From: Sulfuritalea sp.
GTDB taxonomy: Bacteria > Pseudomonadota > Gammaproteobacteria > Burkholderiales > Rhodocyclaceae
Assembly (NCBI GenBank): GCA_023700805.1
Contig: JAMPYF010000014.1
Span: 1 to 64,000, forward strand
Reading direction: 5' to 3'
Length of the DNA: 64,000 nucleotides
This document shows, in pieces, positions 8,587 through 60,962 of this stretch (position 1 is the stretch's first letter; every line of letters starts with the position of its first letter). The notes under the pieces were generated by a model. That model saw only the letters and a list, made by a program, of their open reading frames with translations. It searched no databases and was not told the origin of the DNA. The translations under genes and the position numbers were made by a program.

Positions 8587-9711
8587 ATGACCGTCAATCT
8601 CCTCGATTTCGATGCCGAAGGCCTGACAGCCTGGTTCGCGCAGCAGGGCGAAAAGCCTTTCCGTGCGCGTCAGGTGCTGCGCTGGATGCATCATTTCGGG
8701 GAGAGCGACTTCAATGCGATGACCGACATCGCCAAGTCGCTGCGCGAGAAACTCCTCGCCACCGCCGCCGTATCGCCACCGCCAACTATCAGCGACAAGC
8801 TGTCAGATGACGGCACGCGCAAGTTTCTGTTCGACGTCGGCAACCGCAATGCAGTGGAAACCGTTTTCATCCCCGAGGATGACCGCGGCACGCTCTGCAT
8901 TTCGTCCCAAGCCGGTTGCGCGCTCGAATGCGCCTTCTGCTCCACCGGTCGCCAGGGTTTCAACCGCAACCTCACCACGGCCGAGATCATCGGCCAGTTG
9001 TGGCAGGCCAATCGCGCGCTGGGGCGTGATCCGGCGAGCGGCAACTGCGGCGAACGCCTCATCAGCAATGTCGTTCTGATGGGCATGGGAGAACCCCTGG
9101 CCAACTTCGACAATCTGGTGCCGGCGCTGCGTCTGATGCTCGACGACAACGCCTACGGCCTGTCGCGGCGGCGCGTCACGGTATCGACTTCCGGCATTGT
9201 GCCGGCCATGGACCGCCTGGCCGAGGCCTGTCCGGTCGCCTTGGCAGTTTCCCTGCATGCACCGACCGACGGCCTGCGCGACAAGCTGGTGCCGATCAAC
9301 CGCAAGTATCCACTCGCCGAGCTCATGGCCGCATGCCAGCGTTATCTGCTGCATGCGCCGCGCGACTTCATCACCTTCGAATACGTGATGCTCGATGGCG
9401 TCAATGACAGCGATGCCGATGCGCGCGCACTGTTGCATCTGGTGCGCGACGTTCCCTGCAAGTTCAACCTGATTCCTTTCAACCCCTTTCCGGCTTCCGG
9501 CTTTCATCGCTCTCCGGCCGAACGGGTCAGGCGCTTCGCTTCCATCCTTATCAATGGCGGCATCGTCACCACGACGCGCAAGACGCGCGGTGACGACATC
9601 GATGCAGCTTGCGGGCAACTGGCCGGCAAGGTGCAGGACAAGTCGCGACGGGTACTGCGTGCCGCGGCCTCCGATACCCGCACCACTGCCGGAGTCGAAC
9701 TGCACCCATGA
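8587..9711 (+). CDS. rlmN: Dual-specificity 23S rRNA/tRNA adenine C2 methyltransferase
   Basis: A 374-residue radical-SAM enzyme that methylates A2503 of 23S rRNA and A37 of some tRNAs. The cluster motif CALECAFC (CxxxCxxC) is near residue 117, [11 protein letters not shown] follows, and the second catalytic cysteine lies in DAACGQLAG near the C-terminus. The ndk-rlmN-pilF order is common in betaproteobacteria. It contains one copy of the dispersed CCAGCGCCAACT-type motif (8767-8790, read as SPPPTI) in a region that varies between homologues. Confidence 0.97.
8767..8790 (+). repeat. Dispersed motif copy 1, in rlmN
   Basis: Core CCACCGCCAACT (8776-8787), one change from the CCAGCGCCAACT core; preceded by GCCGTATCG. 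It lies inside rlmN and encodes SPPPTI. Confidence 0.6.
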
Positions 9712-10496
9712 ACAAGACCCTGGTCGCGATTTGGATGGCACTGCTGCTGGCCGGCTGCACGGCAACCGGGGGTGGCTCCGGCCAGGGGGCGCAACAGGCG
9801 GTCTCCGCTCAGCCAGCGGAAAACGAGCAACAGCAGCGCGCCAAGGTGCATACCGAGCTCGGGTCCTTGTACATGCTCGATGGTCGTTCCGCGATTGCCC
9901 TCGAGGAAGCGCGGATTGCGCTTTCGGCCGATCCCAATTACGCACCGGCATACAATCTGCTGGGCCTCACCCACATGGTGCTCAACGAAACCCGGCTGGC
10001 TGAGGAAAACTTTCAGAAGGCCCTGCGCCTGGCGCCGGGCGATCCGGAAATCAGCAACAACTATGGCTGGTTCCTCTGTCAGAGCGGCCGCGAGCAGCTT
10101 TCAATAAGCCATTTCATGGCAGCGGCGCAGAACCCGCTGTACACGACACCGACCAAGCCCTACACCAATGCCGGCATATGCTCGCTGCGCCTGAAGCAGG
10201 ACAAGGCGGCTGAAGACTATCTGCTGACCGCGTTGCGCCTGTCGCCGACCAATACCCAGGCGCTGTTCTGGCTGGCCGATATCGCCTATCGCAAAGGGCG
10301 CCATGCCGAGGCGCGGCAGTGGACCACGGATATCGAGAAAATGATGGAACCCACTGCCGAGGTGATCTGGCTCGCTTTGCGTATCGAGCGGAAGCTGGGC
10401 AATCGCGAGGCGGAGGCGCGCTATGCAACGCAACTGCGGCGTCGGTTCGCCGGTTCGCCGGAACAGCGCTTGCTGGCGCAGGGGCAATATGACTGA
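9708..10496 (+). CDS. pilF: Type IV pilus biogenesis lipoprotein PilF/PilW
   Basis: 262 residues from ATG 9708, which overlaps the rlmN stop (ATGA). The N-terminus [17 protein letters not shown] is a lipoprotein signal with lipobox LAGC. After it come about six tetratricopeptide repeats (for example [18 protein letters not shown] and [19 protein letters not shown]). PilF/PilW is the outer-membrane pilotin that assembles the PilQ secretin. An in-frame upstream extension exists but lies inside rlmN and has no signal peptide, so it was rejected. Confidence 0.93.
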
Positions 10497-11358
10497 AGCG
10501 CGGGCGCTTGAGGGCATGGACACCGAACCGGCAGCGTTGGACGCGGCGGAGCTTGCCGATTCACCCGAGTCGAACACGCCGGGGTCCGTGCTGCGCCGGG
10601 CGCGTGAGTCGCGCGGCCAGTCGGTTGCCGATGTGGTGCAAGTGATACGCTTCAGTGCGCGGCAGATCGAGGCACTCGAGCGGGATGACTACGCCAGCCT
10701 GCCGGGTTCGACTGCGGTGCGTGGCTTGGTGCGCAACTATGCCAAGTTTCTCAAGCTCGATGCAGCACCCTTGCTCGCCCAGCTTGATCCGGCCGTGCCG
10801 GTACCCGAGGCCGATGTGCGTCCGCCCACCAACATGGGCGAAGCCGAGCATTCGAATTTCGTCGAGCAGATTCCCCCCAAACTCATCGCTGTCGGCGTCC
10901 TTCTCGTCGTGCTGGCACTGACCGCCTACTGGTATTTGAACTTGGCGGGCAACGAGGGCTTGACGCTGCGCCTGCTCGGCACGGACGGCGCTGTTGCCGT
11001 GGCCCCGCCCAGCCAGCTTGCTGCCCCAGCGCCCGTTGCCGAGCCGGTCGTGGCGCCGGCACCCGTGCCCGTGCCCGAGAATCAGCCCAATAGCTCCGGC
11101 GCCGTGTCGGGTGCGCCGTCGTCCGGCGGTCTGCGGGTCGAATTCGACGATCGTTCCTGGATCGAGATTCGCGACGCGACACAAAAGATCGTGTATGTCG
11201 GCGAGTACCCTGCGGGTACGCGGCAGAACGTCGAAGGCAAGGCGCCGTTCCAGGTCTGGATCGGCAAGGCCTCCGGTGTTCGCCTGTACATGGGCGAGCG
11301 CAGCATCGATCTCAAACCCCACACCCGCGAAGAAGTCGCCCGGTTCAGCCTGGAATGA
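10489..11358 (+). CDS. rodZ: RodZ-like helix-turn-helix membrane protein
   Basis: 289 residues from ATG 10489, inside the end of pilF (8-base overlap). An N-terminal Cro/HTH domain (about 25-95, [20 protein letters not shown]), one membrane segment (about 133-152, [19 protein letters not shown]), a Pro/Ala-rich linker and a C-terminal DUF4115 domain ([15 protein letters not shown]) form the RodZ layout. RodZ links MreB to the elongasome and helps set rod shape. The rodZ-ispG-hisS order is conserved in many proteobacteria. The stop overlaps the ispG start. Confidence 0.9.
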
Positions 11359-12599
11359 GCATGCCGTCAAGAGAGCCGACAGCGCGGCGCGCGAGCCGTC
11401 TTGCCATGGTGGGAATAGTTGGCGTTGGCGGCACGGCGCCGATCGTGATCCAGTCGATGACCAACACCGATACCGAGGATGTATTCGCCACTTCGATGCA
11501 GGTCGCACAACTGGCGCGTGCCGGCTCGGAACTGGTGCGCATCACGGTCAATACGCGCGAGGCCGCCGCTGCCGTGCCGAAGATCCGCGAGCGCCTGGCG
11601 CAGATGAACGTCGAAGTGCCGCTGATCGGCGATTTCCATTTCAATGGCCACAAGCTGCTGGCCGAGCACCCGGCCTGCGCCGAAGCCCTGGCCAAGCTGC
11701 GCATCAATCCCGGCAACGTCGGTAAGGGCGCCCGGCGCGACGAGCAGTTTGCGCAGTTGATCGAAATCGCCTGCAAGTTCGACAAGCCGATCCGCATCGG
11801 TGTGAATTGGGGCAGCCTCGATCAGGCCCTGCTGGCCCGCATCATGGACGAGAACGCCAGGCGTTCCGAGCCGAAGGATGCCACCGAGATCATGCGCGAG
11901 GCGATGGTCACCTCCGCCCTGGAGTCGGCGGCGCAGGCCGAGCAAGTCGGCCTCGCCGGCAACCGCATCGTGCTTTCGTGCAAGGTCTCGGGCGTTCAGG
12001 ACCTGATCGCGATTTACCGCGAACTGGCAGCGCGCTGCGACTATCCGCTGCATCTGGGCTTGACCGAGGCCGGCATGGGCAGCAAGGGCATCGTGGCCTC
12101 CACGGCTGCGCTCAGCGTGTTGCTGCAGGAAGGCATCGGCGACACGATACGCGTATCGCTGACGCCCGAACCGAACGGCGACCGCACGCGCGAAGTCATC
12201 GTCGCCCAGGAAATCCTGCAGACCATGGGGCTGCGCGCCTTCACTCCGCTCGTGGCGGCCTGTCCCGGTTGCGGACGCACCACCAGCACGGTGTTCCAGG
12301 AATTGGCGCAGGACATCCAGAGCTATGTGCGGGAGCGCATGCCGGAATGGCGCCTGGCGCGCGTGGGTGTCGAGAACATGACGCTGGCCGTGATGGGTTG
12401 CGTGGTCAATGGACCCGGCGAAAGCAAGCACGCCAGCATCGGCATCTCGCTGCCCGGCACCGGCGAAGCGCCGGTGGCGCCGGTGTACGTTGACGGCGAA
12501 CGGGTCATCACGCTGCGCGGCGACAACATCGCCGCTGAATTCCGCCAGATCGTCGACGATTATGTGGCAAGAACTTACCCTGAAAGAGCCAGTCATTGA
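11355..12599 (+). CDS. ispG: 4-hydroxy-3-methylbut-2-enyl diphosphate synthase
   Basis: 414 residues, the longer betaproteobacterial form. This iron-sulfur enzyme converts methylerythritol cyclodiphosphate to HMBPP in the MEP isoprenoid pathway. Cluster cysteines are visible in CPGCGRTTS and [20 protein letters not shown] and GSLDQALL are family signatures. The ATG overlaps the rodZ stop (ATGA). A dispersed motif copy (11414-11438) encodes IVGVGGT near residue 22, just before [11 protein letters not shown], where homologues are usually closer to NVPVGG. Confidence 0.97.
11414..11438 (-). repeat. Dispersed motif copy 2, in ispG
   Basis: On the plus strand AGTTGGCGTTGG (11417-11428), so the motif is on the minus strand with one change in the core. 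GGCACGGCG continues the conserved flank. Encodes IVGVGGT. Confidence 0.6.
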
Positions 12600-12642
12600 T
12601 CGCGTCGGGCGTTGATTTCCCGCGCCTGCCGGCTAAACCAAC

Positions 12643-13950
12643 ATGAGCCAGACACTGCAAGCCATCCGCGGCATGAATGACATCCTGCCGGTCGACGCCG
12701 AACTCTGGGAGCAGTTCGAGGAGGCCGTGCGCGATTGGCTGCGCGCCTACGGCTACCGCCCGATCCGCATGCCCATGGTCGAGCCGACGCCGCTGTTCGC
12801 GCGCGCCATCGGCGCCGTGACCGACATCGTCGAGAAGGAAATGTATTCCTTCGAGGATGCGCTGAACGGCGAAAGCCTCACCCTGCGTCCGGAGGGCACG
12901 GCGTCCTGCGTGCGTGCCGTGCTGCAGCACAATCTGCTCTACGACGGCCCCAAGCGGCTGTGGTACATGGGGCCGATGTTCCGCCACGAACGCCCGCAGA
13001 AGGGCCGCTATCGCCAGTTCCATCAGGTCGGTGTCGAAGCCATGGGCTTTGCCGGCCCCGACATCGATGCCGAGCAGATTGCAATGTGCGCGCGTCTGTG
13101 GGACGACCTCGGACTCGATGGCATCCGGCTCGAAATCAACTCCCTCGGTCAGAGCGACGAGCGCGCGCGCCACCGCGCCGACCTGCTCGCCTATCTCGAA
13201 ACCCATCACGACCAGCTCGATGCCGACGCCCAGCGCCGCCTGCACAGCAATCCGCTACGCATCCTGGATACCAAGAATCCGGCGCTGCAGGCCCTGGTCG
13301 AGGCGGCGCCGAAGCTGATCGACTATCTCGGCGAGGAATCGCTGAAGCACTTCGAGGGCGTGCAGCAACTGCTCAGGGATGCGGTGATTCCCTATCGCAT
13401 CAATCCGCGCCTGGTGCGCGGACTGGATTACTACAACCTCACGGTGTTCGAGTGGGTCACCGATCAACTCGGCGCGCAAGGCACGGTCTGCGCCGGCGGC
13501 CGCTACGACGGCCTGGTCGCCCAGCTCGGCGGCAAATCTGCGCCTGCCTGCGGCTTCGCCATGGGCATCGAGCGCCTGCTGGCGCTGTGGCAGGATCAGG
13601 GCCATCGCCACGAAACCCCGGCGCCCGATGCCTATCTCGTGCATCAGGGCGAGGCCGCCGGTCGCTTCGCCTTTCGCGTCGCCGAAGCGCTGCGCAGTGC
13701 CGGTTTTGTTATCCATCTGCACTGTGGCGGCGGCAGCTTCAAGTCGCAAATGAAAAAGGCCGACAGTTCCGGCGCGCAGCTTGCGCTGATAGTTGGCGAT
13801 GACGAGACGGCGGCCAATGCGGTCAGCGTGAAACCGCTGCGCGCGGGCCTCGACCAGCCTGCAGCGCAGGTTCGCGTGAGTTTCGACGATCTGGCCGATC
13901 ATCTCGGCGATATTCTTTTCCCCCTGGAAGACGACAATGGCAACCTATGA
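12643..13950 (+). CDS. hisS: Histidyl-tRNA synthetase
   Basis: A 435-residue class II synthetase. Motif 2 ([17 protein letters not shown], about residue 110), the histidine-specific [13 protein letters not shown] block, motif 3 ([11 protein letters not shown]) and the C-terminal anticodon-binding domain are all present. The N-terminus [11 protein letters not shown] is standard. It overlaps the next gene by 14 bases, which implies translational coupling. Confidence 0.98.
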
Positions 13951-14602
13951 CCTGGAAGAACAGGAACAGCTCGACGAGCTGAAAACCTGGTGGACGATGT
14001 ACGGCAACCTGGTGACCGGAATACTGGTCGTCGTGGCGCTGGCCGTGGCGGGATGGCAGGGCTGGAACTGGTGGCAGCGACAGCAGGCGGTCAAGGCTTC
14101 GGCGGTGTATTCCAGCCTGCAGACCGCGGCGATGCAGCGGGACGCCAAGCGTGCGCGCGAACTCGCCGGCGAGTTGATCGACAAGTATTCCCTTACGGCC
14201 TATGCCGGCATGGGGGCGCTGCTGGCAGCGCGGGTACAGGTGGATGCGGGCGACGGGAAGAATGCCCGTGTGCAACTGGCCTGGGCGGTGGAGAATGCCA
14301 AGGATCCCGGGCTGCGCGAACTGGCCCGGCTGCGCCTGGCGGCGGTGATGCTCGACGAGAAGGCCTACGACGAAGCCATGAAGCAGCTCGCCGCCGAGCC
14401 GGCGCCTGCGTTTGCGCCGCGCTTCGCCGAATTGCGTGGCGACGTGTTCGCCGCGCAAGGCAAGCTCGCCGAGGCGCGCAATGCCTATGACAATGCGCTG
14501 GAGAAATTCGACGCCCTGGCCAAGGATGACGAGGCGCGCCAGCGTGGCGGCTACAAGGAAGTGATCCAGGCCAAGCGCGACGCGCTCGGGGCGGCCAAGT
14601 GA
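13937..14602 (+). CDS. yfgM: YfgM-like membrane-anchored TPR protein
   Basis: 221 residues. A short cytoplasmic N-terminus ([15 protein letters not shown]) is followed by one membrane segment (about 30-50, [19 protein letters not shown]) and a periplasmic tetratricopeptide-like region. YfgM is an ancillary SecYEG-associated chaperone partner of PpiD. The position between hisS and bamB matches the conserved hisS-yfgM-bamB-der order. The stop is overlapped by the GTG start of bamB. Confidence 0.9.
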
Positions 14603-15759: not shown

Positions 15760-15807
15760 TCTTTTGTCTATCCGTCACACCGATAACGCCGCGGGTGTCG
15801 GCTTAGC

Positions 15808-17127: not shown

Positions 17128-17225
17128 CGTCTGTCCGCGAAGCGGCGCCATGCATGCAAGCACCTGTCCGTGTCGGTCTGGATACCGCCCCGCGGTGGTA
17201 CAGGGCGGACTCCCGGTTATGCAGA

Positions 17226-17251
17226 GCAAAAGTTGGCGCTGGTGGCACGGC
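17226..17251 (-). repeat. Dispersed motif copy 3, upstream of hfq
   Basis: Plus-strand AGTTGGCGCTGG (17231-17242), an exact core match in reverse orientation, with AAA before and GGCACGGCG after. Intergenic. Its TTGGCG could act as a weak -35 with CAAAAT 17 bases downstream, which is speculative. Confidence 0.7.
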
Positions 17252-17376
17252 GACGCAAAATCGATTACAGTATTCGACTCACAAAACCAATAGACCGCAA
17301 GCGAAGTTTCAGTGAGGGCTGGCGCCAGCCTTACCGGCGTTAAGCACAGCGGCCGCAACTATAAGGATCACCCATC

Positions 17377-17613: not shown

Positions 17614-17658
17614 CCGCAATCTGCCGCCGCCGGCGAGCGCCATGAGGCCGTCGCCCTG

Positions 17659-23887: not shown

Positions 23888-26106
23888 ACAAGTCACTTAG
23901 CACCCACAAACTTTCGAAAATTCGTCGGGCTGACCCGCAGTTTGAGCGGGAACAAGCGCAATACGAGCACCCCCTGCCGAGCCGCGAATACATCCTGCAA
24001 ACTTTGACGGCGCAAGGGGCGCCACTGGAACTCGGGCGTCTGGTCGAATTGCTCGACGTGCAGCCATTTGAACTGGAGTCATTCCAGCGTCGCCTGGGGG
24101 CCATGGCGCGCGAAGCCCAGTTGATGCAGAACCGGCGCGGTGATTGGCTGATCCCGGACAAGGCGGATCTGGTGCGCGGTCGTGTTGCCGGCCATCCGGA
24201 CGGCTTTGGTTTCCTGATACCCGACGGCGGTGGCGCGGACCTGTTTCTTTCCGCCAAGGAAATGGACAAGGTGCTGCATGGCGACAAGGCGATTGCCCGG
24301 GTCATCGGTGTCGACCGCAAGGGGCGGCCGGAAGGCAAGATCGTCGAAGTCACCGAGCGCGCAAACCGGTTTGTGGTTGGGCGCGTGATCGAGGAACACG
24401 GCGTACGCTTTGTCGTTGCCGAGAATAAGCGCATCAGCCAGGATATATTGCTGGCGCCTCCCGAGAAGGGGGCCAAGAAGGCCCTCAAGGCGCAGTCCGG
24501 GCAGGTGGTGATGATCGAACTCATCGAACAGCCGAGCAAGCACGGACAGCCGATTGGCCGCCTGGTCGAGGTACTGGGCAACTACGCCGATCCCGGGATG
24601 GAAATCGAGATCGCCCTGCGCAAGCACGAACTGCCCTACGAGTTTTCGCCGGCCGCACTGGCCGAAACGAAGAAGTTGCCTGAGGCGGTGCGCAAGTCCG
24701 ACTGGAAGGGGCGCGAAGACATTACCGGCTTGCCCCTGGTGACCATCGATGGCGAGACCGCCAGGGATTTCGACGATGCGGTGTTTTGCGAACGCAAGGG
24801 CAAGGGCTTTCGCCTTGTCGTGGCGATCGCCGACGTTTCGCACTATGTGACTGCCGGCGGGGACCTGGATGGGGATGCCTACGCACGCGGCAACTCGGTG
24901 TACTTCCCACGGCGTGTGATTCCCATGCTGCCGGAGAAGCTCTCCAACGGCCTGTGCTCGCTGAATCCGCAGGTCGAAAGGCTGTGCATGGTTTGCGATA
25001 TGGAAATTGCCGGTACGGGAGCGATCAGGCGCTACCGGTTCTATCCTGCGGTGATGTTCTCGCACGCACGCCTGACCTACGAAGAAGTTGCGGCGGCACT
25101 TTACGAGAAGAATGTGGAAGTGCGCGCGCGTCTGGAGCCGCTGTTGCCCCATCTGGAGGCACTGGACGCGCTGTACCGCCAGTTGGCCAAGGAGCGTGTC
25201 AAGCGCGGCGCAATTGATTTCGAGACTGTTGAAACGCGCATGATTTTCGATGATCACGGCAAGATCGAACGTATCGAGCCTTACGAGCGCAATGATGCGC
25301 ATCGACTGATCGAGGAATGCATGCTGGCGGCCAATGTCTGCGCATCGGAGTTCCTGCGCGAATCTGAGCATCCGTCGCTGTATCGGGTGCACGAAGGTCC
25401 GACGCCGGAGCGCTTGGTCAAACTGCGCGATTTTCTCGGCACCTTTGGTTTCCAGTTGGGCGGCGGTGACGAGCCCAAAGCCAAGGATTACGCCAAATTG
25501 CTGGAGACCATCGGCCAGCGACCCGACCGACAACTGCTGCAAACCGTGATGTTGCGCTCATTGCGCCAAGCCATCTACAGCCCCGACAATGTTGGCCACT
25601 TCGGGCTGGCCTACGAGAGTTATACGCATTTCACGTCGCCGATTCGCCGCTATCCTGATCTGCTGGTGCATCGGGCCATAAAGTCGGCGCTGGCGGGACG
25701 GCGCTACGAACCGGGGAGCTGGGAAGAAATCGGCCTGCAATGTTCGATGACCGAGCGTCGGGCGGATGAGGCCACGCGCGACGTCGAAGCCTGGCTCAAG
25801 TGCTTCTACATGAAGGACCGGGTCGGCGAAATCTTCGAAGGCAGTATTTCTTCGGTGGTGCCCTTCGGCATCTTCGTGGCCCTGGACGGGGTATTTGTCG
25901 AAGGCCTGGTCCATGTCTCCGAACTCGGCCAGGATTATTTTCATTTCGACGAAAAGTTGCATGCCATGGTCGGTGAGCGCAGCGGCAGGCGTTTCCGCCT
26001 TGCCGACCGTGTGCGTGTGCAATTGACGCGAGTCGACATGGAGGCCAACAAAATCGATTTTCGCCTTGCCGAAGTGGCACCTGTGCATGGCAAGCCCAGG
26101 CATTGA
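23881..26106 (+). CDS. rnr: Ribonuclease R
   Basis: 741 residues from TTG 23881. The reading frame extends upstream to 23812, but that part would be antisense to the tRNA-Leu gene; AAAGGA at 23865-23870 fits the TTG. The order is an N-terminal cold-shock domain, the RNB catalytic domain (DGETARDFDDAV with the metal-binding aspartates, and HFTSPIRRYPDLLVHR), then a C-terminal S1 domain (VGEIFEGSISSVVPFGIFV). RNase R is a processive 3'-5' exoribonuclease that degrades structured RNA. The exact start is uncertain. Confidence 0.94.
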   Translation: MSNKSLSTHKLSKIRRADPQFEREQAQYEHPLPSREYILQTLTAQGAPLELGRLVELLDVQPFELESFQRRLGAMAREAQLMQNRRGDWLIPDKADLVRGRVAGHPDGFGFLIPDGGGADLFLSAKEMDKVLHGDKAIARVIGVDRKGRPEGKIVEVTERANRFVVGRVIEEHGVRFVVAENKRISQDILLAPPEKGAKKALKAQSGQVVMIELIEQPSKHGQPIGRLVEVLGNYADPGMEIEIALRKHELPYEFSPAALAETKKLPEAVRKSDWKGREDITGLPLVTIDGETARDFDDAVFCERKGKGFRLVVAIADVSHYVTAGGDLDGDAYARGNSVYFPRRVIPMLPEKLSNGLCSLNPQVERLCMVCDMEIAGTGAIRRYRFYPAVMFSHARLTYEEVAAALYEKNVEVRARLEPLLPHLEALDALYRQLAKERVKRGAIDFETVETRMIFDDHGKIERIEPYERNDAHRLIEECMLAANVCASEFLRESEHPSLYRVHEGPTPERLVKLRDFLGTFGFQLGGGDEPKAKDYAKLLETIGQRPDRQLLQTVMLRSLRQAIYSPDNVGHFGLAYESYTHFTSPIRRYPDLLVHRAIKSALAGRRYEPGSWEEIGLQCSMTERRADEATRDVEAWLKCFYMKDRVGEIFEGSISSVVPFGIFVALDGVFVEGLVHVSELGQDYFHFDEKLHAMVGERSGRRFRLADRVRVQLTRVDMEANKIDFRLAEVAPVHGKPRH

Positions 26107-26158: not shown

Positions 26159-27322
26159 ATGTACTCCGGATTTCTTGATCTCCCCTGGTGGGGTTACCTT
26201 CTGGCGACGCTTGCCATGACCCACGTCACGATTGCCGGTGTCACCATTTTTTTGCATCGTCATCAGGCACATCGCGCGCTGGAACTCGGGCCCCTGCCGA
26301 GCCATTTTTTCCGCCTCTGGCTCTGGCTGACAACCGGCATGGTCACCCGGGAGTGGGCGGCGATTCATCGCAAGCACCACGCCAAGTGCGAGACTGCGGA
26401 AGATCCGCACAGCCCGCAAGTGGTCGGCCTGAATCGTGTGCTGTGGACAGGCGTGTTTCTGTATGTGAAGGAGTCGCGCAATCCCGATACCACGGAGCGC
26501 TACGGGCACGGTACACCCGATGACTGGCTGGAACGGAAACTCTATACGCCGCTGCACAAACTGGGTGTCGTCGTCATGCTGGGTATCGATGTCGTCTTGT
26601 TCGGTGTTTGGCCGGGTGTGCTGATCTGGGTCGTGCAGATGGTCTGGATTCCATTCTGGGCGGCCGGCGTGGTAAACGGGATCGGCCATTTCTGGGGCTA
26701 CAGGAATTTTGCCTGTGCGGATGCGTCGACCAACTTTTTCCCGCTGGGCATACTGATCGGCGGTGAGGAACTGCACAACAACCATCACGCTTTCGCCACT
26801 TCGGCCAAGCTGTCGAACAAGTGGTACGAATTCGACATCGGCTGGCTGTATATCCGGATGATGGAGTTGCTGGGTGTGGCGCGAGTCAAGAAAGTGGCGC
26901 CCAAGCCCCGGCTCGGCGCAGTTCGGCCCGCCATCGATCTGGATATGCTGCAGGCGGTTGTGACGCATCGCTACGATGTGCTGGCGAGATATCTCAAGAC
27001 CCTGCGCCAACTCGCCGCCGAGGAATTCGCTCAACTGAAGATAGACGCTCGTGAGGGCCGCACGATTAAGCGCCTGCTGGGGGCAGACGGCGCCGCACTG
27101 CCAGGGCCGCAGAAAGAGCGTTTGACGGCCCTTCTTGCCAGAAGCGAGCGTCTGGCCAGGGGCTATGCCATGCGCGCCGAGCTGGAGGCCTTGTGGGCCC
27201 GTTCTTCAGCCTCCCACGATCAGTTGGTGAAACAACTGCAGGATTGGGTGGCGCACGCCGAGCAAAGCGGCATTCGGCAGCTGGAGGAGTTTTCGCGGCG
27301 GCTGCGCAGCTATGCCGTCTGA
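26159..27322 (+). CDS. Acyl-CoA/acyl-lipid desaturase
   Basis: 387 residues, an integral-membrane di-iron desaturase. Three histidine boxes are present: HRHQAH (33-38), HRKHH (70-74) and HNNHH (206-210), with hydrophobic spans between them. The family introduces a delta-9 double bond into saturated acyl chains. The last ~150 residues form a charged, helical tail resembling that of the Pseudomonas DesA type rather than the shorter cyanobacterial forms. GGAAC precedes the ATG. Substrate (CoA or phospholipid) cannot be decided from sequence. Confidence 0.88.
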   Translation: MYSGFLDLPWWGYLLATLAMTHVTIAGVTIFLHRHQAHRALELGPLPSHFFRLWLWLTTGMVTREWAAIHRKHHAKCETAEDPHSPQVVGLNRVLWTGVFLYVKESRNPDTTERYGHGTPDDWLERKLYTPLHKLGVVVMLGIDVVLFGVWPGVLIWVVQMVWIPFWAAGVVNGIGHFWGYRNFACADASTNFFPLGILIGGEELHNNHHAFATSAKLSNKWYEFDIGWLYIRMMELLGVARVKKVAPKPRLGAVRPAIDLDMLQAVVTHRYDVLARYLKTLRQLAAEEFAQLKIDAREGRTIKRLLGADGAALPGPQKERLTALLARSERLARGYAMRAELEALWARSSASHDQLVKQLQDWVAHAEQSGIRQLEEFSRRLRSYAV

Positions 27323-34218: not shown

Positions 34219-34245
34219 CGCCGTGTCGTCAGCGCCAACTCTTGA
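34219..34245 (+). repeat. Dispersed motif copy 4, intergenic
   Basis: Core TCAGCGCCAACT (34229-34240), one change, preceded by GCCGTGTCG and followed by CTTGA. Between aceB and its terminator. Confidence 0.65.
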
Positions 34246-35968: not shown

Positions 35969-36874
35969 ATGGATCAGTTCAAGCAGATTTCTGCCTTTGT
36001 CGGTGTCGCAAGTCGCGGCAGCATGTCAGCCACCGCCCGCGCCGAGGGGGTGACGCCAGCGATCATCGGCCGGCGCCTGGACGCGCTGGAAGAGCGGCTC
36101 GGGGTCAAGCTCTTGTTGCGTACCACGCGGCGGATTTCGCTGACCTTCGAGGGTGCGGCATTTCTCGAAGATTGCCAGCGCATCCTGCGCGAGTTGGCGG
36201 ATGCGGAGGGTGCGGTGAGCCTGGGTGGAATTCGCCCCGGCGGGCATTTGAAAATATCGGCTCCCGCCGGATTCGGGCGGCGTCACGTGGCGCCGCTATT
36301 GACGCGCTTCATTGAAGAAAATCCAGAAGTTACAGTGCGGCTCGACCTGTCCGACCGCATCGTCGACCTGGTGGAGGAGAACGTGGATTGCGCGATCCGC
36401 ATCGGCGAACTGGCGGATTCGAGCCTGATCAGCATACGATTGGGCGAAATGCGGCGTGTGGTAGTCGCCAGTCCGAATTACATCGCGCAGTTCGGCGTAC
36501 CGCCAGCGCCAACTTTTCTGGCCGAGCACAATTGCCTGTCGCTGCGCCAGCAACGCGGGTGGACGCTACGGGTGGAGGGTGAGGTACGGGTGGTCAAGGT
36601 GAGCGGTAAGTTGGAGTGCAACGATGGCGCCGTTCTGCACGATTGGGTGCTGGCCGGGAAGGGGTTGGCCTGGCGATCACTGTGGGAGGTCGGGGCCGAT
36701 ATCGAGGCGGGGCGGCTGGTCACGGTGCTGGATGAATTTGCGGCGCCACCGGCGGGTATTCACGCCGTGGTGCCGCAGCGCCGCCATCTGCCGCTGCGCG
36801 TGAGGTTGTTCATCGATCTGCTCAAGGCCAATTGGCGCGATCCGGCCTATTGGGCAGCCTCGGCAGGTGCATAG
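35969..36874 (+). CDS. LysR family transcriptional regulator
   Basis: 301 residues. An N-terminal winged helix-turn-helix (about 1-60, SMSATARAEGVTPAIIGRRL) and a substrate-binding domain follow the LysR pattern (short form, CrgA-like). It is divergent from aceB with 105 bases between starts, so it is the likely local regulator of malate synthase; the effector is unknown. A dispersed motif copy (36492-36518) encodes VPPAPTF in the linker preceding LAEHNCL. Close LysR homologues usually read a different short sequence there. Confidence 0.88.
   Translation: MDQFKQISAFVGVASRGSMSATARAEGVTPAIIGRRLDALEERLGVKLLLRTTRRISLTFEGAAFLEDCQRILRELADAEGAVSLGGIRPGGHLKISAPAGFGRRHVAPLLTRFIEENPEVTVRLDLSDRIVDLVEENVDCAIRIGELADSSLISIRLGEMRRVVVASPNYIAQFGVPPAPTFLAEHNCLSLRQQRGWTLRVEGEVRVVKVSGKLECNDGAVLHDWVLAGKGLAWRSLWEVGADIEAGRLVTVLDEFAAPPAGIHAVVPQRRHLPLRVRLFIDLLKANWRDPAYWAASAGA
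36492..36518 (+). repeat. Dispersed motif copy 5, in the LysR gene
   Basis: Exact core CCAGCGCCAACT (36503-36514), preceded by GGCGTACCG and followed by TTTC. Encodes VPPAPTF. Confidence 0.7.
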
Positions 36875-39396: not shown

Positions 39397-39397
39397 C

Positions 39398-48234: not shown

Positions 48235-48819
48235 TCAGGCGAAATTCCTTGCCGCGAAATCCCAGTTTGCCAGGGAATTGAGGAAGGTCTCGACAAACTT
48301 GGGCCGGGCGTTGCGGTAGTCGATGTAGTAGGCATGTTCCCACACGTCGATGGTCAGCAGCGCCTTGTTTTCGCTGGTCAGCGGTGTGCCGGCGCCCGAG
48401 GTATTGACGATATCCACCGAGCCATCGGGCTTCTTCACCAGCCAGGTCCAGCCTGAGCCGAAATTGCCGACGGCGGAGGTTTGAAAGGCCTTCTTGAACT
48501 CGTCGAAACTGCCCCATTTTTTGTTGATCGCATCAGCCAGGGCGCCGCTCGGCGTGCCGCCACCGCCAACTTTCATGCTGTTCCAGAAGAAGCTGTGGTT
48601 CCAGACCTGGGCGGAATTGTTGAAAATGCCGCCGGCCGGCGCTTTCTTGATGATGGCTTCGAGGTCGAGGTTCTCGTACTCGGTGCCCTTGATCAGGTTG
48701 TTCAGGTTGGTCGCATAGGCTTGGTGGTGCTTGCCGTAATGGTATTCGAAGGTCTCCTTCGAAATGTGCGGGGCCAGTGCGTCCATCGCGTACGGCAGGG
48801 GGGGGAGGGTATGTTCCAT
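48235..48819 (-). CDS. sodB: Iron superoxide dismutase
   Basis: 194 residues. Metal ligands by alignment: His27, His75, Asp158 and His162 ([13 protein letters not shown]). The YHYGKHH and WNHSFFW motifs fit the Fe-type; Fe versus Mn cannot be fully decided from this. A dispersed motif copy (48550-48575) lies inside the gene and encodes VGGGGTP in the loop after the second ligand helix. Confidence 0.95.
48550..48575 (+). repeat. Dispersed motif copy 6, in sodB
   Basis: Core CCACCGCCAACT (48560-48571) on the plus strand, antisense to sodB; preceded by GGCGTGCCG. Encodes VGGGGTP. Confidence 0.6.
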
Positions 48820-51222: not shown

Positions 51223-51642
51223 ATGAACTTCCAGCGAGGACGGCAGCGCGAAGAACTCGAGATCAATCTGATCCCGATGATAGACGTGCTGTTGGTGATC
51301 CTGATTTTTCTCATGATCAGCACCACCTATTCAAAGTTTTCCGGATTGGAAATCAATCTGCCGACGGCGGACGCAACCCAGAACAAGGAACAGCCGAACG
51401 AAATAAACGTGGTGGTCACCGCCGCCGGCGAGATCATGGTCAACCGCGCCCCGGTCGACGGTCGCGACATCCAGTCGATTGCCAACGCGATGAAGCGATT
51501 GACGGAAGGCGGCAAGGAACCGGTGGTGATCATCAACGCCGACGCCAAGGCGGCCCATCAAAGCGTCATCGACGTCATGCAGGCCGCCCAGCAGGCAGGC
51601 TTGTCGCACATTTCCTTTGCCACGCAGCAGGCGCAACGCTGA
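51223..51642 (+). CDS. exbD: ExbD/TolR family protein
   Basis: 139 residues. One membrane helix (about 17-38) contains the essential aspartate in LIPMIDVLLVILIFLM; the rest is a periplasmic domain. It follows exbB after 10 bases and overlaps lpxK by 26, so exbB-exbD-lpxK-ycaR-kdsB form one operon. Confidence 0.94.
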   Translation: MNFQRGRQREELEINLIPMIDVLLVILIFLMISTTYSKFSGLEINLPTADATQNKEQPNEINVVVTAAGEIMVNRAPVDGRDIQSIANAMKRLTEGGKEPVVIINADAKAAHQSVIDVMQAAQQAGLSHISFATQQAQR

Positions 51643-52645
51643 CGCCGGCGGACTTGCCGCCGTCTGGCGGAAACGCGGCCTGCTGGCCTGTCTGCTGTAC
51701 CCCTTTTCGCTGCTGTTCCTCGTCCTTGTCGCCTTGCGCCGCACCCTCTACCGCAGCGGCTTGCTGCCCGGCGAAGGCCTGCCGGTGCCGGTGGTGATAG
51801 TCGGCAACATTACCGTGGGCGGCAGCGGCAAGACACCGCTGGTCATCCATCTGGCGGCGCAATTGCGCGGTCTCGGACGGCATCCGGGCATTGTCAGTCG
51901 CGGCTATCGAAGCGACGCTCGGCAGGCGATGGAAGTCACAGTAGGCAGCGATCCCGCCGCCGTCGGTGACGAACCATTGCTGCTGGCGCGCAGTGCCGAT
52001 TGTCCGGTATTTGTCGGCCGCGACCGGCCGGCAGCGGCGCGCGCCCTGCTCGCGGCATACCCGCAATGCGATGTGATTCTTGCCGATGACGGCCTGCAGC
52101 ACTATCGCCTGAAGCGCGACGTCGAGATCGCGGTATTCGATGAAAGAGGAATCATGAATGGCTGGTGCCTGCCGGCCGGGCCTCTGCGGGAGCCCGTCGC
52201 GCGCCTGGCCGAGGTCGATGCCGTGGTGCACAACGGCAACGCCGTGTCGCCAGCGCCAACTCTTGATCGCCCCGTATTCGCGATGCGCTTGCTGGGCATG
52301 CGCTTTCACCGTCTCGACGATCCGCGGATCACCTGCGGCCCGGCCGATCTGGCGGGCCAAAAATTGCATGCGGTAGCCGGCATCGGCGCGCCGCAGCGCT
52401 TTTTTGATCACCTGCGGGAAATGGGATTGGTGTTCGCCGGGCATGCCTTCGCCGATCACCACGATTACCGCGCCGGCGATCTCGCATTTGCCGGCGACGC
52501 CATACTGACCACGGAAAAGGATGCCGTAAAATTGAGCCGCCTTTCCCTGTCGCTGCCGGTTTGGGTGTTGCCCGTAACGGCGGACGTAAACCCCGACCTT
52601 GCCGCATTCGTTCTGGAGAAACTCAATGGACACCCGTCTGCTTGA
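51617..52645 (+). CDS. lpxK: Tetraacyldisaccharide 4'-kinase
   Basis: 342 residues. The Walker A motif is [14 protein letters not shown] (about residue 63), and [11 protein letters not shown] is the family signature. It phosphorylates the lipid A disaccharide at the inner membrane (an N-terminal membrane helix is visible at about 25-40). A dispersed motif copy (52241-52265) encodes VSPAPTL, in a loop. Ends overlapping the Trm112-like gene by 20 bases. Confidence 0.94.
52241..52265 (+). repeat. Dispersed motif copy 7, in lpxK
   Basis: Exact core CCAGCGCCAACT (52250-52261) with GCCGTGTCG before and CTTG after; the flanks match copy 4 almost perfectly. Encodes VSPAPTL. Confidence 0.7.
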
Positions 52646-52802
52646 AATCCTGGTTTGTCCCGTCTGCAAGGGGCCGCTGGAGAACCGCAAGGCCACCGCT
52701 GAACTGGTTTGCAAAGGCTGCAAGCTGGCCTATCCGGTGAAGGACGGCATTCCGGTGATGTTGGAAGACGAGGCACGTCAGTTGGCTCCTGAAGAATACT
52801 GA
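52626..52802 (+). CDS. ycaR: Trm112-like/UPF0434 small protein (YcaR)
   Basis: 58 residues from ATG 52626 ([19 protein letters not shown]); an earlier in-frame start inside lpxK was rejected. A zinc-ribbon-like pattern, CPVC and CKGC, and [11 protein letters not shown] are typical. lpxK-ycaR-kdsB is a conserved operon order. Function unknown. Its stop overlaps the kdsB start (TGATG). Confidence 0.92.
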
Positions 52803-53575: not shown

Positions 53576-53625
53576 GTTTTGGCTTGCTCGAAAAAGTAAA
53601 AAGCACTTGTAAATCATGTAGATAA

Positions 53626-54300
<675 letters not shown>

Positions 54301-54349
54301 CGATTCTTGATGAAATAGGCGCCCGGCTCATTTTTGCGCAGGAGGTTTC

Positions 54350-55459: not shown

Positions 55460-55485
55460 TCCGGGACCTACGGCCCGGATCAATC
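55454..55485. terminator. Hairpin between the two convergent phosphofructokinase genes
   Basis: A perfect 12-bp stem GATTGATCCGGG (55454-55465) / CCCGGATCAATC (55474-55485), loop of 8. It includes the stop of the first gene and has no T-run, so it may stabilise 3' ends rather than terminate strongly. Confidence 0.5.
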
Positions 55486-55516
55486 GGCCACGATCAGCGC
55501 CGGTTCGGCGACCGGC

Positions 55517-56737
55517 TTATTTCCCGGATTTCAGGATCTTTTCGACCTTGTTGAGCCGCAGCCGATAGGCGTCGGGCATGCCGGAACCGAGCAAGGGGCG
55601 CAGGTAAAGGCGGAAGGCATCGGTGACGTCGGTACCGTTGGCGGCGATGAATTCATCTTCCATCACGCGCGTTTTCCCGGCCACGCTTTCCAGTGGGACC
55701 AACTGGTAATCGACGGAATAAAAGCCGGTGCGCTTGATCGCGACCGATCCGTCACGATCGCCCCACATGGCGTATTGCACGGCCTTCTCGCCGACTTCGC
55801 GCGCCTCGCGCTGATCGACATCCGAAACACAGCCCATGAATGACCGCTGCAGATAGCCGAAGGTGTCGCCGCGCACGCGCTTGATGCCGAGTTTGTTCTT
55901 GATCTCGTCGCACAGCAGGTCGGCAAGCGCCCCGGTGCCGGACAGCTGGACGTTGCCATGGGCATCCCGCTCCACCTGGCTGCTGAGCTGGGTGATGATG
56001 GGGGTGCCCTGGTTGTCATGGATGCCTTCGGATGCGGCAATCACGCAGCGGCCGTACTTGTCGTAGGTGGCTTTGACGTCCGTCAGGAATTTATCGACGC
56101 TGAAGACGCGCTCCGGCAGATAGATCAGGTGCGGGCCGTCATCGGGGAATTTCTTGCCGAGCGCGGACGCGGCAGTGAGAAATCCGGCATGCCGCCCCAT
56201 TACCACCGCAAGATAGACGCCGGTGAGTGCGGCGTTATCCAGATTGGCTCCCATGAACGCCTGGGCGACAAAGCGCGCCGCCGACGGAAAGCCCGGCGTG
56301 TGGTCGTTGCCGACCAGGTCGTTGTCGATGGTTTTTGGAATGTGGATGCAGCGCAAGGCATAGTTGGCGCGGCGCGCTTCCTCGCTGACGATGCGCACCG
56401 TGTCGGAGGAGTCGTTGCCGCCAATATAGAAGAAGTAACCTATGCCATGCGCCTTGAGGACCTTGAATATCTCCTGGCAATACTTCAGGTCAGGCTTGTC
56501 ACGGGTCGAGCCGAGCGCCGAAGACGGCGTGTTGGCCACCATTTCAATGTTGTGGCTGGTTTCCTGGGTGAGGTCGAGGAACTCCTCATTTATGATGCCG
56601 GACACTCCGTGATACGCACCATAGACCAGTTCGACATTGCGGAACTTGCGGGCTTCGAGAACGACGCCGGCCATCGACTGGTTGATGACTGCGGTCGGTC
56701 CTCCTCCCTGAGCAACTAACACCTTACCCTGCGGCAT
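55517..56737 (-). CDS. pfp: Pyrophosphate-fructose 6-phosphate 1-phosphotransferase
   Basis: 406 residues from ATG 56737 (MPQGKVLVAQGGGPTAVINQ), with AAAGGAAA upstream; a longer reading was rejected. The donor site is GGNDSSDT and IPKTIDND: Asp at position 104 and Lys at 124, the PPi-dependent signature. GNDHTPGFPSAAR and MGRHAGFLTAAS follow. The reaction is reversible, so one enzyme can serve glycolysis and gluconeogenesis. Close to hppA, which supplies or consumes PPi. Confidence 0.92.
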   Translation of the reverse strand: MPQGKVLVAQGGGPTAVINQSMAGVVLEARKFRNVELVYGAYHGVSGIINEEFLDLTQETSHNIEMVANTPSSALGSTRDKPDLKYCQEIFKVLKAHGIGYFFYIGGNDSSDTVRIVSEEARRANYALRCIHIPKTIDNDLVGNDHTPGFPSAARFVAQAFMGANLDNAALTGVYLAVVMGRHAGFLTAASALGKKFPDDGPHLIYLPERVFSVDKFLTDVKATYDKYGRCVIAASEGIHDNQGTPIITQLSSQVERDAHGNVQLSGTGALADLLCDEIKNKLGIKRVRGDTFGYLQRSFMGCVSDVDQREAREVGEKAVQYAMWGDRDGSVAIKRTGFYSVDYQLVPLESVAGKTRVMEDEFIAANGTDVTDAFRLYLRPLLGSGMPDAYRLRLNKVEKILKSGK

Positions 56738-57114
56738 GATCTGGCTTTCCTTTCGTTTGAACAGACTGGATTGATAATCCGGAATGCGAGCGAATATGAA
56801 TTCAGCATCGAGCACATGCAGGCGGCGAACCTGCAATTCAATATGTACTATATCCGGCATTATGCGCAGTCGGTATCCATCAACCCGATTTGGCCATCAA
56901 CAGATTTTGGCATCTGCGATCGGCAATTTGCGCATACTGCCGGAAACAGATAAGTCGATTAGACATACAAGGCAGCCTTCCCAGCCCCGGCAGCGCCGAA
57001 CAATCGGTCAAGTTTGAAGCAGCACTGGTTGCCGTGCCTGCGGCAACGATCCTTAGGATCGCGTGATAAACTTATGCGTTTGGTTCATTACATTAATCAA
57101 TCAGGGGAGAATTT
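56738..57114. other. Divergent regulatory gap between pfp and hppA
   Basis: 377 bases, no gene supported. Two adjacent inverted repeats lie 50-90 bases before hppA: GTTGCCG/CGGCAAC (57028-57034 and 57041-57047, 6-base loop) and CGATCC/GGATCG (57047-57052 and 57056-57061). They could be a leader structure or overlapping operators. No clear sigma-70 pair was recognised. Confidence 0.4.
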
Positions 57115-59208
57115 ATGTCAGCAGGACTGATGTTTGCGCTGATCTGTGCCGTGGCGGCGATCGCCTACGGCTGGATCATGAGCCAGTGGATTCTGGCCCA
57201 ACCGGCGGGCAACGACCGCATGAAGGGAATTGCTGCGGCGATTCAGGAAGGCGCCCAGGCATACTTGAATCGTCAATACACGACGATCGGCATTGTCGGC
57301 GTGGTACTCGCTGCGGCGATCTGGATCTTCCTCGGTACCACCACCGCCGTCGGCTTCATCATCGGTGCTGTATTGTCGGGCGCGGCCGGCTACATCGGCA
57401 TGAACGTTTCGGTACGCGCCAACGTGCGTACCGCCGAAGCGGCGCGCGTCGGCCTCAATGAGGCGCTCAACGTCGCCTTCAAGGGCGGCGCCATCACCGG
57501 CATGCTGGTGGTCGGTCTCGGCCTGCTGGGCGTTGCCGGCTACTACGCCGTGCTGAAGACGCTGGGCGGCACGGGCGCCAAGATGGAAGACATCATTCAT
57601 CCGCTGGTCGGCCTCGGCTTCGGTTCCTCCCTGATTTCGATCTTCGCCCGACTCGGCGGCGGCATCTTCACCAAGGGCGCCGACGTCGGCGCCGACCTGG
57701 TGGGCAAGGTGGAAGCCGGCATTCCCGAGGACGATCCGCGCAACCCCGCGGTGATCGCCGACAACGTTGGCGACAACGTCGGCGACTGCGCCGGCATGGC
57801 CGCCGACTTGTTCGAAACCTACGCAGTGACCACGGTGGCGACCATGCTGCTGGGCGCGCTGCTGCTGAAGGTGAATCCCGTGTTCGCCGAACAAGCCGTC
57901 ATTTATCCGCTGGCCCTGGGTGGCTTCTCGATCATCGCTTCGATCATCGGCGTGATGTTCGTCAAGGCTTCGCCGGGCGGCAAGATCATGAACGCCCTGT
58001 ACCGCGGCCTGATCGTCGCCGGCGTGCTGGCCCTGGTGGCCTTCTATCCGATGACCACCTGGTTGATCGATGATCGCCTGCTCGACAGCGTGCTCGGCAT
58101 CAGCGGCGGTTCGCAGATGCGCCTCTACGGAGCCGCGGTGATCGGTCTGGTGCTGACCGGCTTGATGGTCTACATCACCGAGTACTACACGGGCACCGAG
58201 TTCAAGCCGGTGCAGCATGTGGCACAGGCTTCCACCACGGGTCACGGCACCAACATCATCGCCGGTCTCGGCGTCTCGATGAAGTCCACCGCATGGCCGG
58301 TGCTGTCGGTCTGCGCCGCGATCTGGGCCTCCTACACCATGGGCGGTCTGTACGGCATCGCCATCGCTGCCACCTCCATGCTGTCGATGGCCGGCATCGT
58401 CGTCGCACTCGACGCCTACGGTCCGATCACCGACAATGCCGGCGGCATCGCCGAAATGTCCGAGTTGCCCGCCTCCGTGCGTGCCGTGACCGATCCGCTG
58501 GATGCCGTGGGCAACACGACCAAGGCCGTCACCAAGGGTTATGCGATCGGTTCCGCGGGTCTTGCGGCGCTGGTGCTGTTCGCCGACTTCACGCATGGCT
58601 TGGAATCGCTCAAGCCGGGCGTCAAGTTCGCCTTCGACCTGTCCGATCCGGCAGTCATCATCGGCCTCTTCATCGGCGGCATGGTGCCTTACCTGTTCGC
58701 CGCGATGGGCATGGAAGCCGTCGGCCGCGCCGCCGGTGCCGTGGTGGTCGAAGTGCGCCGCCAGTTCAAGGAAATCAAGGGCATCATGGAAGGCACGGCC
58801 AAGCCCGAATACGGCACCTGTGTCGACATGCTGACCAAGGCGGCGATCAAGGAAATGATGATCCCGTCGCTGCTGCCGGTGCTGGTTCCCGTGGTCGTGG
58901 CCTTCGGCATGAATGCGCTGATGGGCCCCGGTGCCGGTGTGCGGGCGCTGGGCGGTGTGCTGATGGGCACCATCGTGACCGGCATCTTCGTCGCGATCTC
59001 GATGACCACCGGCGGCGGTTGCTGGGATAACGCCAAGAAGTACATCGAAGACGGCCACTACGGCGGCAAGGGTTCCGAAGCGCACAAGGCTGCCGTGACC
59101 GGCGACACCGTGGGCGATCCGTACAAGGATACGGCGGGCCCGGCGGTGAATCCGCTGATCAAGATCATCAACATCGTGGCTTTGTTGATCCTGCCGCTGG
59201 TAGTGTGA
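57115..59208 (+). CDS. hppA: Proton-pumping membrane pyrophosphatase, K+-independent
   Basis: 697 residues with about 16 membrane helices. The catalytic [11 protein letters not shown] and [12 protein letters not shown] (with metal aspartates) are perfect. The key site reads [10 protein letters not shown]: Lys at the position where K+-dependent enzymes have Ala marks the K+-independent H+-pumping class. It couples PPi hydrolysis to proton export, or makes PPi from the proton gradient. GGGGAG precedes the ATG. Terminator downstream at 59231, inside the next reading frame. Confidence 0.97.
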
Positions 59209-60962
59209 TTCTTCGCAACATGTTTGATCGAACGGGCAGCCTGCGGGCTGCCCGTTTTTTCTTGTTGGTGGCCGTTCTGGCGGGCACCGCCCAGGCTTGG
59301 GCGCAGGGTGAGCAGCCGGAGGCGGCCAGCGGTTTTGCGCCCCGACCGGCGGCGGCCGGCAGCGCTTTCATGGCGGTCACGGCGAACGCCTATGCCACCG
59401 ACGCCGCCGTGGAAATCCTCGAACTGGGCGGCAACGCGCTGGATGCCGCGGTCGCCGCGCAGTGGGTGTTGAACCTGGTCGAACCGCAGTCCTCGGGCAT
59501 CGGCGGCGGCGGCTTCATGCTGCACTGGGACGCGAGGCGGCAGCGGGTGGCGGCCTGGGACGGCCGCGAGACGGCTCCCCGTGGCGCCAGCGCCAACTTT
59601 GCACGCCGCGCGGACGGAAGTCCGGCAGGTTTCGCCGAACTGGTGGCGACCGGCAAGGCAGTCGGCGTGCCGGGTCTCGTCGCCATGCTGGAAGCAGCGC
59701 ACCGACGCCACGGCAAGCTGAGATGGGAACGCCTGACGCGACCGGCACTGCGCCTGGCCGAGCACGGCTTTGCCATTTCGCCGCGCCTGCATCAGCTCTT
59801 GCGCGATGATCCGTTGCTACGCCGCGATGCGGCGGCGCTGGCCCTTTATTACTCGAAGAGCGGCGAGGCGAAGCCGGTCGGCGAGATCCTGCGCAATCCC
59901 GAGTTCGCCGCTGTCGTGCGCGCTGTTGCGGCGACGGGTGCAAATGCTTTGCATGAGGGGGAGTTGGCCGGCCGCATTGCCGCCGCAATCAGGCAGCGCG
60001 GAGGAGTGCTGACGACGGCGGACATGTCCGCCTACCGGCCGAAGCAGCGCGCTGCGGTCTGCGGCAAGTATCGTCGGTGGCGGATCTGCGGCATGCCGCC
60101 GCCTTCGTCTGGCGGCATTGGCGTACTGCAACTGCTGGGCCTGTTGGAACGCAGCGGGCTACCAGCAGGTGATCCGGCCGGCCCGGACGCGGCGCACCTG
60201 TTCGCCGAAGCCGGGCGACTGACCTATGCCGATCGGGCGCGCTATCTGGCCGATCCGGATTTTTTTGCCGTGCCGCAGCGCGCATTGCTTGATTCCCGCT
60301 ACCTGGAGCGGCGCTCGCGCCTGATCGAGCGCGGGCGCAGCATGGGTGTCGCCCAGCCGGGAGAACTTCCGGCCGGTCGCGCGCAGGCCGACGATGACGC
60401 TCCCGAACTGCCGGCGACGACGCATGTTTCGATTGTCGATCGGGCCGGCAATGCCGTGGCGCTGACCAGCTCGATCGAAAGCGCTTTCGGCAGCCGCATA
60501 CAGGTCCGAGGATTCCTGCTCAACAATCAGCTGACCGATTTTTCCGCGGCTGCAGAACGCGACGGCAAGCCCGTCGCCAATCGCCTGGAGCCGGGCAAGC
60601 GGCCCCTGTCTTCGATGGCGCCGACACTGGTCTTCGATGCCGCCGGACGGCTCCACGCGGTGCTGGGCTCCCCCGGCGGCAGCCGCATCATCAACTATGT
60701 GGCGCGGACCCTGGTCGCGCTGCTCGACGGCCAGGGGGATCCTGCGGCGGTCCTTGCCCTGCCGCATGTCGGCAACCGCAACGGGGCGACTGAAATCGAG
60801 CGCGGCCGTGTCCCGGACGCCTTGGCGCAGGAGCTGGAAAGGCGTGGCCATGCGGTGCAGCGCAGCGACATGACCAGCGGCCTGCATCTGATCGTGCGCA
60901 GCGCCGAGACTTGGTTGGGCGCAGTCGATCCGCGTCGCGAAGGCGTCGCCCGCGGCGATTGA
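59205..60962 (+). CDS. ggt: Gamma-glutamyltransferase
   Basis: 585 residues if starting at GTG 59205 (overlaps the hppA stop, GTGA); ATG 59220 is an alternative. A signal peptide ([18 protein letters not shown]) precedes the large subunit ([21 protein letters not shown]). The self-cleavage/nucleophile threonine lies in [18 protein letters not shown] binds the glutamyl group. It splits glutathione in the periplasm. The hppA terminator forms in codons 9-19, so expression depends on read-through or a promoter farther right, and the start is uncertain. A dispersed motif copy (59578-59603) encodes RGASANF. Confidence 0.9.
59231..59260 (+). terminator. hppA terminator inside the ggt signal-peptide coding region
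   Basis: An 11-bp perfect stem, AACGGGCAGCC (59231-59241) with GGCTGCCCGTT (59246-59256), loop TGCG and T6 at 59255-59260. It has all the features of a rho-independent terminator but lies inside the open reading frame of ggt. Confidence 0.88.
59578..59603 (+). repeat. Dispersed motif copy 8, in ggt
   Basis: Exact core CCAGCGCCAACT (59587-59598), preceded by CCGTGGCG and followed by TTGC. Encodes RGASANF. Confidence 0.7.

Follow-up and report, generated by a model that had tools for sequence, protein, structure and literature searches.

The stretch analysed here (64,000 nucleotides of Sulfuritalea sp., assembly GCA_023700805.1, contig JAMPYF010000014.1, positions 1 to 64,000; hereafter the window) carries a dispersed 26-bp motif that, as judged from sequence comparison, is probably a DNA-uptake-signal-like sequence of a lineage of the Rhodocyclaceae comprising the genus Sulfuritalea and at least five other genera. 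On our best reading, which is made by analogy, the motif system would work like the DNA uptake sequences (DUS) of the Neisseriaceae and the uptake signal sequences (USS) of the Pasteurellaceae, in a third family, and by its sequence it is not the neisserial DUS. A long asymmetric word that is present in hundreds of copies, most of which are kept and respelled in place across a clade, has the look of an uptake sequence; with its indifference to reading frame and to the direction of replication, and with its rare close pairs, it does not resemble mobile repeats, Chi/KOPS or codon usage. Of the three explanations offered in a preliminary description of the window, an uptake or recombination signal was the best supported, by the abundance of the motif, its dialects, its gap-free orthologous copies and its indifference to reading frame; the replichore-orienting signal and the small mobile repeat that were also proposed were not supported. 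The genome of the window is called G000 below, and other G-numbers denote genomes compared with it.

The motif is non-palindromic and reads CGCCGTnnCGCCAGCGCC[A]ACTyTtG, that is, CGCCGT, two loose bases, CGCCAGCGCCAACT and then yTtG. Its anatomy was determined from 48 exact matches to the 12-base core, CCAGCGCCAACT, in 452 kb of G000 and 48 in 379 kb of the relative G001. The conservation beyond the core that had been noticed earlier was found to span 26 bases in all, from 10 before the core to four after it, with the bases at -4 and -3 weakly constrained; outside these 26 bases there was essentially no conservation save a codon-like ripple. The weight matrix started from 97 exact copies, grew to 164 sites by iteration and was then rebuilt from 224 sites of 14 genomes of the genus. 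Its scores were bimodal in the histogram, with a trough from about 12 to 24 between the high group and the background. The matrix found 94, 80 and 94 copies in 452 kb of G000, 379 kb of G001 and 500 kb of G002, respectively (2, 3 and 0 when reversed), and extrapolation from the G000 sample gives about 850 copies per genome. The genome-wide count of the core that the preliminary description had called for was performed on the 4.16-Mb genome and gave 406 exact cores (200 on the plus strand and 206 on the minus strand), against 4 for the reversed control. In the window, 10 matches to the core with at most one mismatch were found against 0.61 expected, and none of 100 shuffles reached 10; the earlier statement that the repetition is not due to chance thus held.

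As in the DUS and USS, the motif occurs in dialects that differ between taxa. The dialect base is the 19th of the 26-mer (base 9 of the core); it is G in most of the samples, A in a clade of three species including G000, and partly T in another species. The counts at this base were 79 A and 15 G in G000 (n = 94), 67 A, 11 G and 2 T in G001 (n = 80), 93 G and 1 T in G002 (n = 94), and 18 G and 8 T in G011 (n = 26), in which the 17th base was also divided (13 C, 13 T). G was found in the samples from other genera, except for one A in G109, and because of this G is probably the ancestral state. The copies of other genera mostly had a longer run of T at the 3' end, and the four copies of G297 had GCCGCC and GAGT instead of GCCGT and GACT (GCCGCC..GCCGAGT). 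The switch to A showed no significant lag in frames where A alters the amino acid (32 A, 7 G) compared with synonymous frames (66 A, 9 G; p = 0.40; one T was left out of this test). Between genes, the base was A in 48 copies, G in 10 and T in one. The samples taken from G285 and G068, of 20 kb each, held no copy.

The alignment of gene copies with homologues, suggested earlier as a check for insertion versus substitution, was performed in both directions with the small set of copies that could be aligned. A gap-free motif stood at the same position for most of the alignable G000 copies (G002, 7/8; G023, 5/5; G005, 4/4; G013, 2/2; G006, 1/1; G046, 1/1; G010, 2/3). For G011, one of two was in place and one was partial, and for G001, 20 of 21 were in place, 16 of them gap-free. 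Conversely, the copies of the relatives were present in G000 for G002 (7/8), G005 (4/5), G010 (3/5), G023 (5/5) and G001 (19/21), and for all five of the few alignable copies of G006, G011, G013 and G046. In the seven gap-free copies shared by G000 and G002, 1.5% of the 19 fixed bases differed, against 15.1% in the 100-bp flanks, and the dialect base was A against G in six copies and G in both genomes in one. The corresponding differences inside and in the flanks were 1.3% and 16.5% for G005 (n = 4), 2.1% and 18.4% for G023 (n = 5), 3.5% and 17.1% for G010 (n = 3), 5.3% and 17.0% for G013 (n = 2), and 5.3% and 17.7% for G006 (n = 1); gapped copies (five of G001, one of G002 and one of G010) were set aside from the divergence figures.

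With a home-made gene caller, copies touching genes amounted to 64 of 94 in G000 and 52 of 80 in G001, and the copies were enriched between genes 2.3-fold (p = 6e-6) and 1.9-fold (p = 5e-4), respectively. All six classes of frame and orientation were present, the commonest being frame 1 of the opposite strand (43 of 94 in stricter genes); note that this census, like the counts by frame at the dialect base, is approximate because the caller assigned one of eight checked genes of the window, ispG, to the wrong strand. Close pairs were depleted: gaps below 500 bp made up 5 of 165 against 10.3% expected (p = 0.0004). In G002, the genome of which is complete, 24 of 25 sampled stretches (20 kb each) held a copy; when three stretches near skew changes were left out, the copies were distributed as 31 plus and 27 minus on one arm and 13 plus and 15 minus on the other, with no replichore bias (Fisher test, p = 0.65), and the replichore-orienting role proposed earlier thus found no support. 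A copy-poor stretch of 58.8 kb was seen in G001 (C5, 36535-95312; L058-L061), with 2 interior copies against 12.4 expected, the significance of which is post hoc because the stretch was chosen as the most copy-poor one. Its genes include a phage-type integrase, a GmrSD restriction enzyme, NERD-kinase proteins, a COX1 oxidase and an ImpB/MucB-family polymerase.

The likeness to the Neisseriaceae DUS lies in the hundreds of copies, the dialects, the genic and intergenic positions, the retention at orthologous places and at least one island of low density, features that are ascribed to the DUS in earlier reports (PMC3630211, PMC2397512, PMC7371117); a DUS density of one per 400-1100 bp is given in the last of these. 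The Rhodocyclaceae motif differs in its length (26 bp with two loose bases, against 10-12 bp), sequence, host family and density (about one per 5 kb), and in that no excess of inverted pairs was seen and ComEA was mostly undetected. The neisserial DUS is the 10-mer GCCGTCTGAA or one of its dialects and often stands in inverted terminator pairs; the different consensus and the lack of an inverted-pair excess exclude it as such. In the USS of the Pasteurellaceae, a T-rich stretch comes after an asymmetric core, and this anatomy is shared by the present motif, which is unlike them in sequence, in its GC-rich core and in its host family. For the USS, one report names ComN (PpdA) as the receptor candidate (PMC12616744). 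In the mechanism that we propose, a receptor at the cell surface, which is probably a minor pilin of the type IV system, would favour motif-bearing DNA; fragments taken up would recombine into the chromosome, so that alleles bearing the motif would spread and be kept by a molecular drive through transformation, and shifts in the preference of the receptor would lead to the respelling of hundreds of copies in place and thus to dialects. A third family with several dialects, with one genome whose copies look eroded (G017) and an empty one (G285), would offer a comparative test of what makes uptake sequences appear, change and disappear, and would show environmental microbiologists which organisms exchange DNA with one another. 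A literature search did not reveal any earlier description of such a motif from the Rhodocyclaceae, with most subscription papers and all bioRxiv preprints outside its coverage.

The evidence on the machinery of competence points both ways, and several other observations weigh against an uptake signal. In its favour, a ComEC-family gene was found in all 50 genomes, the DprA family scored over the cut-off in 18 of 20, and ComP_DUS-family pilins did so in 47 of 50 and in none of 14 control genomes. On the other side, none of the three marks the motif, because they also occur in motif-poor genomes and some control genomes match ComEC (10/14) and DprA (11/14). A pilin of G002 used as a query matched all 50 genomes. 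ComEA (TIGR00426) scored over the cut-off in only one of 20 motif-bearing and two of 12 motif-poor genomes, and the PF12836 matches in the motif-bearing genomes were mostly frames of about 800 amino acids, not of the size of ComEA; no other observation speaks as strongly as this scarcity against ordinary transformation of the neisserial kind. Competence without ComEA exists elsewhere, with ComH in Helicobacter. When a receptor was sought by phyletic pattern, no candidate stood out: the ComP_DUS family, the G002 pilin, ComEC, DprA and ComEA failed to separate motif-bearing from motif-poor genomes. Unlike in Neisseria, inverted pairs were not in excess (13 of 174, against 10 at random places). 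Conservation in place was not uniform either, and the comparison covers alignable copies only, which are few: the differences inside and in the flanks were 3.4% and 9.3% for G001 (n = 17) and 10.5% and 18.2% for G046 (n = 1), and G011 ran counter to the trend (13.2% and 14.5%; n = 2). Odd composition went significantly with few copies in G001 (p = 0.02), and no significant association was seen in G000 or G002. Furthermore, with a G/A pattern an exact copy was found in at least 120 viral stretches, and these 120 loci held 213 matrix copies (3 with the reversed matrix), 60 of the loci having at least two. We know of no uptake experiment on the motif. Apart from these points, for two pilins the solved relatives among the matches listed are pilins, none of them named ComP. 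Two ComP_DUS-family pilins were located in G000 (C37, at about 211565 and 225219); two such pilins each were present in the A-dialect clade (G000, G001 and G016), one was found in six of the seven other congeners searched, and G008 had two.

Of the other explanations, chance or ordinary codon usage is practically negligible in view of the 406 cores against 4 in the control, the several reading frames and the intergenic copies. A small mobile repeat inserted into many genes would account for the copy number and the limits of the clade, and hundreds of copies are also a feature of repetitive extragenic palindromic (REP) and miniature inverted-repeat transposable element (MITE) types of repeats; however, the motif is not palindromic, nothing is conserved beyond its 26 bases, its dialect changes in place, and the alignments, with gap-free copies in G002 (7/8), G023 (5/5) and G005 (4/4), revealed no insertion relative to the relatives, so that we rejected the REP/MITE type and regard a mobile repeat as very improbable. 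Chi and the FtsK-orienting polar sequences (KOPS) are short, frequent and asymmetric; the motif shares frequency and asymmetry with them and is much longer, and the lack of orientation bias between the replichores of G002 speaks against them. Both a mobile repeat and a Chi/KOPS-like signal are also made unlikely by the two orientations, the several frames, the intergenic enrichment and the few close pairs. The earlier view that the motif is not a recognised REP, neisserial uptake sequence or Chi site agrees with the different consensus, the non-palindromic sequence and the absence of replichore bias. A transcription terminator or another regulatory element would fit the intergenic enrichment (1.9- to 2.3-fold) and the T-rich 3' end in other genera, but about two thirds of the copies touch called genes and inverted pairs show no excess, and we hold this explanation to be just as improbable as a mobile repeat. 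A terminator role through inverted pairs was rejected separately: the first counts, 6 of 94 and 5 of 80, looked raised, and the control with random places gave similar values.

Two explanations deserve more weight, both of them still unlikely in our estimation. The motif may be bound by an abundant protein of the nucleoid or one that organises the chromosome, with the copies as anchors and with changes of specificity leading to dialects through selection site by site. This possibility, a minor one in our view, would agree with the scarcity of close pairs, the lack of replichore bias, the presence of a copy in 24 of the 25 sampled stretches of G002 and the absence of most ComEA; on the other hand, it does not predict the copies in phages or the one copy-poor island, and the motif is absent from most related genera. 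To our knowledge, an asymmetric 26-bp site with about 850 copies, which are mostly genic and are respelled even where this alters a residue, would be unusual for proteins that organise the chromosome. Slightly less probable is that the motif is a genome-wide mark of self, by which a protein, in cells that lack a recognisable ComEA, would distinguish the cell's DNA from that of others, and which phages would copy; if so, dialect shifts would act as barriers to gene flow. In its narrower form, in which a pathway of nuclease action, repair or defence within the cell would read the mark and spare or prefer motif DNA, and phages would copy it, this explanation is to be doubted somewhat further. It is favoured by contigs with phage genes that carry several copies (six in L281, four in L313 and five in L300), but the viral density beyond the selecting copy was 0.85 per 10 kb (120 loci), below the approximately 2 per 10 kb of the hosts, and this value overstates phages at large because each locus was chosen for a copy. 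A strand bias like that of Chi was not seen, and we know of no 26-bp mark of self of such a kind. An uptake signal remains, in our judgement, the probable explanation.

The exact core of the A dialect was abundant in three of 25 genomes of the genus (406, 324 and 366), and the other 22 had 1-10, because those of them that were sampled use other dialects, mostly that with G; the copies of other dialects came to light through matches in DNA comparisons. With a degenerate pattern allowing one mismatch, at least 50 copies were found in 37 of 297 genomes of the family, belonging to six of 68 genera: the genus of the window (12/13), g35 (10/11), g80 (9/9) and g62 (4/4), and the sole genomes of g24 and g54. 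The remaining genomes of the family had at most 32 copies. Note that the copy densities of G006, G010, G014, G020, G041, G042 and G046 are biased upward, because several stretches were picked for a motif-like match. Two genomes within motif-bearing genera stand apart, G285 of g35 with no copy and G017 of the window's genus with 32, and these are possibly natural cases of motif loss; the copies of G017 look eroded, one of them with a superoxide dismutase flank. De novo k-mer counting in 100 kb of G017 gave no clear replacement motif, by a method that performed poorly on further small samples and missed the known motif in G018. Among 386 genomes of other families, 0-5 copies were found, 27 genomes having any, and the reversed control matched in about 9. 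The 27 genomes (G395, G035, G348 and 24 others) have one to five near-full-length copies each, which are possibly traces of transfer. Within the family, a few clustered copies were seen in otherwise almost motif-free genomes (G127:C1, 1461266-1502244; G172:C1, about 1.67 and 1.91-2.01 Mb; G101, C66 and C104), which may have entered these genomes with DNA from motif-bearing relatives; in G127, two copies with the same short flanks were confirmed in a 10-kb piece.

The weight-matrix scan revealed ten copies in the window, namely, the eight listed in the preliminary description, all present and each within one base of the start given there, and two more. Six of the ten lie on the plus strand, which are the six of the eight said to read in that direction, and the four exact cores reported among the eight were also recovered. 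Nine of the ten core matches sit in full copies, and that at 27001 does not. With the two added copies, the six coding and two intergenic positions reported before become eight copies within genes and two between them, and the claim of unrelated genes, several frames and both orientations was borne out by eight different genes supported by Pfam, in four classes of frame and orientation (counted by hand from the gene ends). The copy CGCCGTATCGCCACCGCCAACTATCA (8766..8791, +) is inside rlmN (8587-9711, +; Pfam, RlmN). That at 11413..11438 (-) is inside ispG/gcpE (11355-12599, +; Pfam), in the orientation opposite to the gene. The first added copy (13787..13812, -), which has two core mismatches, is inside hisS (12643-13950, +; Pfam). 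The second (25678..25703, -) is of the G dialect and is inside a gene for an RNB-domain ribonuclease (24004-26106, +), with a counterpart at the same position in G002, G011, G013 and G023. The intergenic copies are at 17227..17252 (-), with an exact core, and at 34219..34244 (+). A gene for a LysR-type regulator (35969-36874, +) contains the copy at 36493..36518 (+), with an exact core, for which the same position was aligned in eight relatives, G011 among them having only a partial motif. The copy at 48550..48575 (+) is inside a gene for an Fe/Mn superoxide dismutase (48235-48819, -; Pfam). Exact cores are also found in the copies inside lpxK (52240..52265, +; gene, 51617-52645, +) and inside a gamma-glutamyltranspeptidase gene (59577..59602, +; gene, 59220-60962, +), the latter copy having the motif in G023 and G005, and a gapped alignment without the motif in G002.

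As for mobile DNA, no viral contig was found with the A-dialect pattern, and a plasmid search with one host gene gave no match. Among the viral contigs with the G/A pattern, the six copies of L281 lie within 8.6 kb, together with genes for an RNA ligase and an HNH protein, and the four of L313 lie within 14.7 kb, together with RecE/RecT. In L300, which carries genes of the tail-fibre J family, four copies are spaced 316 bp apart, and the fifth follows 385 bp further on.

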